DNA from: a bacterium
GTDB lineage: Bacteria; Oederibacteriota; JAAXVQ01; JAUVAV01
Reading direction: 5' to 3'
DNA: 61,959 nucleotides
NCBI GenBank assembly: GCA_021108215.1
Contig: JAIORK010000048.1
Coordinates: forward strand, 1-61,959
The notes beneath the pieces were generated by a model that was not told the DNA's origin, did not search any database, and worked only from the letters and a program-made list of their open reading frames with translations. The position numbers and the translations under genes were made by a program. Shown piece by piece: positions 6,710 to 9,439 of the stretch (position 1 is its first letter; every line of letters begins with the position of its first letter).

Positions 6710-6791
6710 GCCGGACGTAAAGATTAGGGCGGTAATTTTTTTAATCTGATTGGATCAAGAAAAAAGGCATGATCCTATTAAGGAAGGCAAA

Positions 6792-7817
6792 ATGAGTTTA
6801 CTAAAAAAGAAAAGATTTTGGATCGGTATTTTTATGACCGGTTTGTTTTTGTATTTGGTTTTTCGTCAGGTGGATGTGTTCGGTTTGAAAACCGCGCTGG
6901 TGCATGCGGACTATCGCTGGTTGGTGCCCGCATTGATTGTTTATCTGTTGGGGTATGTGTTGCGTGCGATTCGCTGGCAATACTTGATGCACACGATTAA
7001 GCGGATATCCTGGCAGCAGCTGTTCCCTCCGCTGATTTTAGGGTTTATGTTTAATAATGTTTTTCCTGCGCGGGCAGGTGAATTTGTCCGGGCGTATGTG
7101 GTTGGGAAACGTGAAAATATATCCAAGAGTGCGGTTTTTGCCACCGTGATCATGCAACGTGCTTACGATGGCCTGGTGATGGTATTGTTTGCCGGTGTGG
7201 TGCTTTATTTTTATCACCTGCCGGAAACGCAGGGGAATGCGGAGTTTGTCCAAATGATTAATTTGATTGTTAATCTGACAACGCTGCTGTTTGTTGCCAT
7301 GTTTATAATCCTGTTTGCGATCATCACCTGGAAAAAATTAGCGACAACTGTTTTAGGGAAGTTGACCCGGATGTTGCCCGAGAAAATCGGCCGGCCTGTG
7401 GATAAGATATTCGGTTCATTGCTTGATGGTTTTTCCGTACTTAAAAGTAAGCGCAACAGCATGCTGGCGTTTACTTTTTCCGTATTGGCCTGGAGCGGCG
7501 AGAGTGCGGCCTATTATTTTGTGCTCCGTGCCTTTGGGCTGGAGCTGCCGGCCTATGTGGCGATTATGCTTATGGCAGTCGTGAATCTCGGTATTATGAT
7601 TCCGTCCTCGCCGGGCTATATCGGACCTTTTGAGTTTTTTGGTGTCGGTACTTTGATGCTTTTTGGTATTGTGAAAAGCACGGCCCTGCCATGCATTTTA
7701 GTGATTCATACATTGGTGTGGCTGCCGATTACATTGTGGGGATTTTATTATATGTGGACCATGAAACTCAGCTTTCGCGAGATGGAGGCTAAAGCGCAGG
7801 AATCCGCAGGAATATAG
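6792..7817 (+). CDS. Flippase-like integral membrane protein (UPF0104/AglD, LPG-synthase TM family)
   Basis: 341 residues with about eight hydrophobic helices. Family hallmarks are visible: NNVFPARAGEFVRAYVVG (variant of N-x-PxRxGE-xxR), a following QRAYDG (usual ER..D), and the late SSPGYIGPFEFFGVG motif. This family includes MprF-type flippase domains and AglD-like proteins associated with lipid-linked sugar handling. AAGGAAGG precedes the ATG at 6792, which I prefer over a TTG at 6750. It lies 82 bp after the GT39 gene and is probably co-transcribed with it, which fits a role in moving or processing a polyprenyl-linked sugar. Confidence 0.88.
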   Translation: MSLLKKKRFWIGIFMTGLFLYLVFRQVDVFGLKTALVHADYRWLVPALIVYLLGYVLRAIRWQYLMHTIKRISWQQLFPPLILGFMFNNVFPARAGEFVRAYVVGKRENISKSAVFATVIMQRAYDGLVMVLFAGVVLYFYHLPETQGNAEFVQMINLIVNLTTLLFVAMFIILFAIITWKKLATTVLGKLTRMLPEKIGRPVDKIFGSLLDGFSVLKSKRNSMLAFTFSVLAWSGESAAYYFVLRAFGLELPAYVAIMLMAVVNLGIMIPSSPGYIGPFEFFGVGTLMLFGIVKSTALPCILVIHTLVWLPITLWGFYYMWTMKLSFREMEAKAQESAGI

Positions 7818-7828
7818 CACGAGATGGG

Positions 7829-7967
7829 TATTCCCGGCAAGTGGTTATTTTATTCATGCGAACACGAAAAATCCCGGATTATTTACCGTAAATGTTGCTG
7901 GGCGAACAGTTTTAGTATACTCAATGATATCGCTTCGCATGAATAAAATAACCACTTGCCGGGAATA
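7829..7967. repeat. 34-bp perfect inverted repeat around a 71-bp spacer
   Basis: Arms at 7829-7862 and 7934-7967 are exact reverse complements over 34 bases (starting TATTCCCGGCAAGTGG). The 71-bp spacer is non-coding. No T-run follows either arm, so it is not a standard terminator, and no target-site duplication is obvious. It fits a miniature inverted-repeat element or an RNA hairpin. It lies between the flippase and oxidoreductase genes. Confidence 0.85.
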
Positions 7968-8026
7968 GTAATGTCTTGGGATGCTGACGCTGAATCGGGA
8001 AATTTTTAGTACAAGGAGCCTATTGT

Positions 8027-9439
8027 ATGAATATCGGTATTATCGGAGCAGGGCTGGCCGGGTTGACGGCGGCCCGTCAATTATTAAAAGCCGGGCACAA
8101 CGTTACGGTTATTGAAAAAGAAAAAAAAACAGGCGGACTGGCCGGGACTTTTTCGTTTCAAGGTACGCGCCTGGAGATTTTTTATCACCATTTTTTCACC
8201 ACCGACCAAGAGACCGTGCAACTGATTAAAGAGGTGGGTCTGGCGGATGAAATTATCTGGCAAGAGACGCCCATGGGGATTTTTAAGAACAACCGGCTGT
8301 TTAAGTTTGCCTCACCCCTGGATTTGATCCGTTTTAAACCGCTCTCGTTTTTTAACCGCATCCGGTTTGGTGTGGTTGTGCTGTATTTATCCAGGATAAA
8401 AAATTGGTGGAAATATGAGAATGTTTGTGCCAAAGATTGGATTATCCAGGCGTTTGGAAAGCAAGCATGGGAGGTTATTTGGGGCCCCTTGCTGCATGGG
8501 AAATTTGGTGAGTATGCATCTGAAATCGGTATGCCCTGGTTTTATTCCCGGATTCACACCCGCGCCGGGAGCCGCGAAAAAGGGATGACCAAAGAAAGCC
8601 TGGGATATCTTCGGGGAAGTTTTCAGGTGTTGCATGACCGTTTGGTACAGGACATTAAAAAGTTGGGCGGCAGCGTCCGCTGCAGCGAAGCAGTCCGTCA
8701 AATCGTGGTAAAGAATGGGAGGGCTCGAGGTTGGAAGACATCCGCCAAAACAGAGATATTCGATAGTGTGCTGGCAACCTTGGCGCCTCAGGGTCTTATA
8801 AAATTACTTTCAAAAAACAGTGTTGGCGATTACTGGGACCGTCTCCGGCAGGTGACCTATATCGGCAATGTCTGCGCAGTGTTGACATTGAAGCGGTCAT
8901 TGTCACCGATTTACTGGATGAATATTCCTGATCGACAAAGTCCCTTCATTGCTGTGATTGAGCATTCCAATTTTATTGATAAGAAAAATTATCAAGACCG
9001 GCATGTACTCTATCTTTCTTCCTATCTGCCGACAGAGCATCCCCGCTACCGTGCAGACGATAAGACACTGCTCAAAGAATATTACGACTATCTTAAAAAA
9101 ATTATTCCTTCTTTTACGCCGGCGGATGTTGTACAGAGTCATGTTTTTCATGCGCCGTTTGCCCAACCCGTCATTCGGGCTGGATTCGGAAAAACCCTGG
9201 TTCCGTATGCGTCGCCCATTACCGGGTTGTATCTGGCAAATATGGCCCAAATTTATCCGGAGGATCGGGGGATGAGTTACAGCATCCGCCTGGGTCGGGA
9301 AGCGGCGGAAACCATAAAAGAATATATACCGGAAAAGAAAGCTGTGCGGTCCGGGATTACGAAAGCAACTGGTTTGAAAAAGATTAAAAAAGCCGGGCAA
9401 AAACGCGTAATTTGGAAGAAAACCACGAAGCGAAAATAA
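8027..9439 (+). CDS. NAD(P)/FAD-dependent oxidoreductase (protoporphyrinogen oxidase/amine oxidase-like)
   Basis: 470 residues. The N-terminal dinucleotide-binding fold has IGAGLAGLTAA (5-15) and the beta-2 acidic residue in VIEKEKKTGGLAGTF, typical of the flavin amine oxidase/UDP-galactopyranose mutase/HemY superfamily. The C-terminus carries a second FAD contact region (GLYLANMAQIYPEDRGMSYSIRLGREAAETI) and then a Lys-rich tail. AAGGAG stands 9 bases before the ATG. Relatives are frequently linked to GT2 glycosyltransferases in polysaccharide clusters; here a GT2 gene follows by 94 bp. Heme biosynthesis is unlikely from context. The substrate, possibly a sugar or polyprenyl intermediate, is not known. 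Confidence 0.85.
   Translation: MNIGIIGAGLAGLTAARQLLKAGHNVTVIEKEKKTGGLAGTFSFQGTRLEIFYHHFFTTDQETVQLIKEVGLADEIIWQETPMGIFKNNRLFKFASPLDLIRFKPLSFFNRIRFGVVVLYLSRIKNWWKYENVCAKDWIIQAFGKQAWEVIWGPLLHGKFGEYASEIGMPWFYSRIHTRAGSREKGMTKESLGYLRGSFQVLHDRLVQDIKKLGGSVRCSEAVRQIVVKNGRARGWKTSAKTEIFDSVLATLAPQGLIKLLSKNSVGDYWDRLRQVTYIGNVCAVLTLKRSLSPIYWMNIPDRQSPFIAVIEHSNFIDKKNYQDRHVLYLSSYLPTEHPRYRADDKTLLKEYYDYLKKIIPSFTPADVVQSHVFHAPFAQPVIRAGFGKTLVPYASPITGLYLANMAQIYPEDRGMSYSIRLGREAAETIKEYIPEKKAVRSGITKATGLKKIKKAGQKRVIWKKTTKRK

Follow-up and report, generated by a model that had tools for sequence, protein, structure and literature searches.

A dispersed family of long hairpins with co-evolving arms in the genome of an Oederibacteriota bacterium

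Among the described systems closest to the repeat analysed here, REPINs undergo compensatory changes and involve hairpin intermediates, according to an excerpt of PMC3116915. Hairpin stems can arise and persist through template switching (PMC8794818, excerpt), which can also homogenise their arms (PMC8604942, excerpt). A literature search over titles and the starts of abstracts returned no family that combines conserved spacer motifs with arms that vary between copies and match within each copy, which is no proof of absence. Here, we present an analysis of a perfect inverted repeat in a 61,959-nucleotide stretch of DNA (the window) from a bacterium of the phylum Oederibacteriota, whose genome assembly comprises 3.56 Mb in 67 contigs.

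The repeat lies between two genes on the same strand (Table 1), beginning 11 nt past the stop codon of the first and ending 59 nt ahead of the ATG of the second, with a TA at both feet. A previous sequence-only reading of the locus had reported exact 34-bp arms and a 71-bp spacer, and both the coordinates and the complementarity were borne out; we reason that the probability of such a repeat arising by chance in 62 kb is negligible. Pairing reaches outward in weaker form (7818-7862 with 7934-7978; 45 nt, 89% complementarity), and the hairpin region folds far below shuffled sequences on both strands (z of −9.4 and −9.6; 0/200 shuffles each). As that reading had also noted, terminator features are absent, in that no terminator-like site was found at the hairpin. 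It had further pointed to a TATACT near 7916 as a possible promoter for the oxidoreductase gene; the hexamer is indeed present at 7916-7921, but the plus strand showed no promoter-like site (the minus strand had one, versus 1.0 expected) and, by eye, the hexamer is not conserved across 38 aligned copies. A promoter or terminator role for the hairpin is therefore not supported.

Table 1. Coordinates of the hairpin and its neighbours in the window
Feature	Coordinates	Strand	Remarks
Left arm	7829..7862	+	34 bp, perfect complement of right arm
Spacer (loop)	7863..7933	+	71 nt; defines the orientation of the element
Right arm	7934..7967	+	34 bp
T tract in arm	7848..7851	+	mirrored by AAAA at 7945-7948; least variable part of the stem in 38 aligned copies
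Conserved spacer motif ACGAAAA	7864..7870	+	from the 38-copy alignment
Conserved spacer motif	7893..7903	+	TGTTGCTGGGC in the window copy; family consensus TGCTGCTTGGC
Outward extension of left arm	7818..7828	+	weakly paired with 7968-7978, by complementarity
Upstream gene	6750..7817	+	membrane protein of the PF03706 LPG_synthase_TM type
Downstream gene	8027..9439	+	PF01593 flavin amine-oxidoreductase type

The sequence-only reading had proposed looking for the arms elsewhere, and this search led to related hairpins at 50 sites in the same genome. BLAST against the genome's DNA listed 13 matches, including half elements and opposite-strand matches. A first covariance model (R1), built from 8 copies (alignment A1), gave 59 matches at E≤0.1, and a second (R2), built from 38 copies (alignment A2; 48 palindromes less ten judged to lie outside the family), gave 63 matches at E≤0.01, which by our tally represent 50 distinct sites once 13 matches counted as opposite-strand duplicates are removed. 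Arms were measured at 43 of these 50 sites by an ungapped palindrome scan of the fetched loci; the scan requires a palindrome and trims arm ends at mismatches, so that arm mismatch in the 43 copies is underestimated. By eye, three of the remaining seven sites still form strong stems and four fold poorly. The copies are mostly intergenic, and the mean G+C of the 43 is 39%, versus 47% for the window. They occur in clusters, several in opposite orientation, and a unit of two opposite-orientation hairpins recurs at three loci, where by eye the similarity stops on both sides and the flanks are unrelated.

Several loci show other arrangements. At L055:3239-3567, two copies stand in direct tandem, 203 bp from start to start, and a third hairpin, of another subfamily, adjoins them at L055:3660-3795. 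A half element, made up of the left arm and the beginning of the spacer, is found in L074 near 2798-2841 (C40:14297-14340), by eye upstream of an ECF-type sigma factor-like gene. Other long-arm hairpins (L070:2900-3043, L075:2338-2479, L136:3704-3887, the same site as L052:204-387, L065:1315-1457, and L057:7063-7226) have arms of 31-34 bp and spacers of 77-120 nt without the ACGAAAA/TGCTGCTTGG core; two of them have a GGCACTGTC-like spacer start in common, and the five possibly represent one or more further hairpin families.

Within the family, arms are mostly 25-37 bp long (20 bp in a single case, L054:3461), and spacers span 59-85 nt. A near-invariant T/A tract is present in the arms, and in the 38-copy alignment ACGAAAA and TGCTGCTTGG-like motifs are conserved in the spacer. 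The arm sequences vary from copy to copy, yet in most copies both arms match each other. In alignment A2, 29 of the 31 stem pairs have changed on both sides, the two invariant pairs both lying in the T/A tract, and 95.6% of 1111 stem cells are paired. The covariation score was 0.84, compared with 0.168 (sd 0.012) in shuffles, none of 500 scoring as high, and with at most 0.129 when the alignment was slid. Arm co-evolution is thus well supported as a pattern. Watson-Crick pairs fill 1127 of 1184 arm cells in the 38 copies; the mismatched cells, read on the motif strand, comprise 10 of the GT type and 29 of the AC type (p = 0.003, the copies not being independent). This skew is absent from five further copies (5 GT-type, 2 AC-type) and is not robust in the 43 combined (15 and 31, respectively). 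G-U pairs are not enriched on the motif strand, which argues against RNA selection on that strand; an RNA read from the opposite strand would still be compatible with these counts. Because the arms covary nearly wholly by Watson-Crick double changes without a motif-strand excess of G-U, our data suggest that they are maintained at the DNA level, by template switching or by selection for a DNA hairpin.

From the perfect identity of the arms, the sequence-only reading had inferred a recent insertion or gene conversion, or else a function at the RNA level. The copy closest to the window copy among the 37 others in A2 has only 72% spacer identity, and the best other copy by BLAST has 78% identity over 101 nt. 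Moreover, 12 of the 43 measured copies, which are strongly diverged, also have perfect arms; perfect arms are therefore not a sign of recency, and they do not support a recent insertion. Arm identity drops along with spacer identity: as the latter decreased bin by bin from 0.9-1.0 to 0.4-0.5, mean outer-arm identity was 0.92, 0.82, 0.67, 0.57, 0.38, and 0.29. Divergence is thus faster in the outer arms than in the spacer, although the outer arms are not unrelated at each site; between the window copy and L048:4291, identity is 43% in the outer arms and 72% in the spacer. Because arm identity falls with spacer identity, the arms look inherited. The idea that, in general, arms are captured from the target is not supported on the same ground. 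Among close copies, the two closest pairs (95-97% spacer identity) had no double-changed and 9 broken stem positions, three pairs at 84-89% had 6 and 11, and three pairs at 78-80% had 12 and 6, respectively. This trend, which rests on small numbers from 8 overlapping pairs, is as expected if single changes arise first and are matched later.

Using a protein search over 12 relatives with the gene pair that flanks the window copy, we examined 10 loci with strong matches, nine of which had both genes. The gap between the LPG_synthase_TM and oxidoreductase genes was ≤35 nt in seven of these nine relatives versus 209 nt here (aligned ends); of the other two, G004 has a gap of 143 nt and G010 one of 110 nt, with unaligned ends in G010. 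A second copy (L065:2242) lies between two genes, presumably ispD and ispF, that are 158 nt apart here. Both ispD-ispF-like genes were present at nine of 10 relative loci, where they overlap or are separated by ≤60 nt in eight cases and by 316 nt in one. It is well supported that the hairpin is a dispersed, inserted element.

In other genomes, R1 with strict filters matched none of 58. At E≤0.01, R2 matched six of 37 genomes (14 matches in G004, two in G003, and one each in G007, G030, G032, and G036); the single weak matches may score on pairing alone, and by eye their sequences look unrelated. At E≤1e-4, one of 44 other genomes in the phylum was matched (G004, 12 matches). R2 run over 384 genomes, with 8 candidates scored per genome, gave no match outside the own genome, a weak negative since even G004 was missed. 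We found no relatives in plasmid or phage records, and no viral contig contained the exact 29-nt piece of the arm, collections from which the own genome or near records may be absent; likewise, no relatives of the oxidoreductase were found in viral contigs. A motif scan of genome contigs yielded single matches in 45 stretches, which look like chance (best R2 E-value of 0.12).

In G004, which belongs to a sister genus, the R2-matched hairpin (best E of 1.2e-10) lies inside elements of 212-214 bp. Like the window family, these elements have the R2-matched hairpin, a T tract, and a ATTGCAAAGCGGAAAACC-like motif; unlike it, they have 13-bp terminal repeats (GTAACTACTCAGG) outside the hairpin, 8-bp duplications, and copies that are very alike. 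Duplications were found at ≥7/8 identity in 12 of 14 cases (6/8 and 4/8 in the other two), with a mean match of 7.3 versus 3.4 in shuffles (0/2000). Judging from the R2 score, the common T tract, and the GAAAA-type motif, the hairpins of G004 and the window may be homologous. Elements of the IS66 family have 5'-GTAA ends and make an 8-bp duplication, and the GTAA ends and 8-bp duplications of the G004 elements recall this family. A search for the IS66 transposase (PF03050) found one fragment (a 61-aa open frame) in G004 and none in G000 or G003; an IS66 transposase in the own genome is not supported by this search. Five G004 loci (L149, L161, L151, L174, and L175) have GTAACTACTCAGG ends around very different contents, and the smallest such element, of 27 bp, is little more than two ends.

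Altogether, we consider it likely that the window repeat is one member of a family of mobile hairpin elements, non-coding and non-autonomous, whose arms co-evolve at the DNA level, and that it inserted passively at this site. The family has spread to 50 detectable sites of the genome, and the insertion in the window followed the split of the lineage from most of the related genera in the comparison. Pairing, arm length, the T/A tract, and the spacer motifs persist across copies whose arm sequences show little conservation, from which we infer that an enzyme targeting the spacer motifs, the folded hairpin, or both most likely mobilised the element. Both arms would change together by template switching between them at replication and/or by selection for a single-stranded-DNA hairpin, and if so, the perfect 34 bp would be a maintained property of the family rather than a mark of youth. 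At the window site, the element probably inserted passively between two co-oriented genes and, if these are co-transcribed, may form part of a large hairpin in their mRNA. We offer more tentatively, as a possibility that falls short of probable, the further proposal that this mobile family is recognised by shape, leaving arm sequence almost unconstrained, and that template switching homogenises the arms in place, so that copies drift yet stay near-perfect palindromes.

A classical MITE (the sequence-only reading had named the repeat a candidate MITE) would be a deletion derivative of an IS with a DDE transposase, its arms being the terminal inverted repeats and its target-site duplications eroded or too short to detect. 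The part of that proposal that stands is insertion and dispersal to 50 sites, and small size and lower G+C fit as well. However, no target-site duplication was detected within 25 nt of the feet at 48 own-genome sites, where the longest direct repeat averaged 4.56 versus 4.49 in shuffles (17/60 shuffles as high), in a test blind to duplications of 2 bp or at greater distance. Several bacterial MITEs have TA at their ends (PMC2229807, excerpt), as does the window copy; nevertheless, a symmetrical TA near the feet was seen in only 11 of 43 copies. The relative in G004 is flanked by duplications and has terminal repeats starting with GTAA; however, those repeats stand outside the hairpin, and the IS66 family was not found in the own genome. 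Moreover, the arms are not common to the copies, unlike terminal repeats bound by a transposase, and no linked transposase or autonomous element was found among the two families sought (PF01797 and PF03050). We therefore regard descent from such an IS as doubtful.

It is equally doubtful that the element is REPIN- or BIME-like and is moved by a tyrosine (HUH) transposase with single-stranded hairpins as its substrate. The layout resembles that of a REPIN (inverted arms with a spacer of ~70 nt), the copies are clustered and several oppositely oriented, the lack of target-site duplications fits, and compensatory changes are also reported for REPINs (PMC3116915, excerpt); some RAYTs, moreover, have flanking self-complementary repeats that bear no relation to GTAG-REPs (PMC3733652, excerpt). 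The genome contains Y1-type genes, with 5 matches to PF01797. In addition, 11 matches, including the query itself, were obtained with a fragment that we take to be RAYT-like. However, R2 found no full hairpin in the Y1 and RAYT-like loci (~1.5 kb on each side), and linkage to these genes is not supported. Scores in the Y1 loci were weak (E of 0.17-0.99); in the RAYT-like loci, the best (E of 0.0027) was the edge, at the locus end, of a hairpin at C5:25681, 1.4 kb past the RAYT-like fragment at C5:23896-24246 and followed by a second hairpin at C5:25830, and the next was 0.05. Instead, these loci carry other repeats: inverted-repeat scans revealed GTAG-type palindromes in several of six RAYT-like loci and, at three of five Y1 loci, flanking repeats of the GGGGACGT type. 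The tags expected of REPs were seen near the feet of few of the 43 copies (GTAG in 4, CGTC in 2, versus 2 and 2 for the reversed tags), and REPINs have conserved ends and a variable spacer, the reverse of the window family.

Five of these loci (L245-L249) hold genes that are presumably RAYT-like, with GTAG-type palindromes nearby that vary by locus (e.g., GTAGGGGCGAAAAATTTTTCGCCCCTAC in L245). Three others (L128, L129, and L130) hold Y1 transposase genes of ~340 aa with inverted repeats of 22-32 bp around a GGGGACGT core; their layout resembles TIRYT elements, although the agreement of the core with the GGGGWSAS motif of PMC3733652 (excerpt) is incomplete.

The possibility that the hairpin is a structured RNA gene family or an mRNA element, such as an attenuator or an RNase III site, kept by selection for RNA pairing, is improbable. 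The very strong covariation, the stable folds, and the conserved spacer motifs would be expected of it, the window copy lies between co-oriented genes, and the AC-over-GT skew (31 to 15 in 43 copies) would mean tolerance of G-U on the opposite strand. Against it, Rfam covariance models gave no match at E≤1 in positions 7700-8100, G-U pairs are few on the motif strand, and the insertion is absent from most relatives. Strand preference is lacking too: 29 of 48 sites lie between co-directional, 11 between divergent, and 8 between convergent genes, and at the 29 co-directional sites the spacer is sense in 16 and antisense in 13, as judged from crude gene calls (the longest ORFs, including a few short ones that overlap an element) and with five of the 48 sites being other hairpin types of arbitrary orientation. 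An RNA-level function, which the sequence-only reading had also entertained, is thus unsupported as far as an RNA of fixed strand is concerned. Finally, an assembly or amplification artefact (a fold-back chimera) might be imagined in a 67-contig assembly but is exceedingly improbable given fifty sites with a common family structure, diverged sequences, and oriented spacer motifs.

The genome offers about fifty natural replicates of a long hairpin with co-evolving arms, which allow a direct test of homogenisation by template switching against selection for pairing. They also warn against dating an insertion as recent from the perfection of its inverted repeat. Should the reading in which arm sequence is nearly free and shape is recognised hold, this would be a mobile element recognised by its shape and loop motifs rather than by the sequence of its arms.

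Three known systems invite comparison. Like the Correia/NEMIS, ERIC, and RUP MITEs, the window family is <200 bp, A+T-rich, and dispersed, with inverted repeats and TA at the feet of the window copy (PMC2229807); it differs in that no target-site duplication was detected, the arms are unshared, and symmetrical TA is confined to a minority of copies. Rickettsia palindromic elements, compared here by description only, are likewise palindromic repeats (105-146 bp) that fold into long stem-loops; however, they are known for insertions in protein genes (PMC2229807), while the window family is mostly intergenic. With REPINs, the window family has in common the inverted doublet, the long hairpin, the compensatory changes, the intergenic, non-coding nature, and pairs in opposite orientation (PMC3116915). 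In contrast to REPINs, which have conserved 16-mer ends and associated RAYTs, the window family has no linked RAYT, its arms vary, and conservation lies in the motifs of the spacer.
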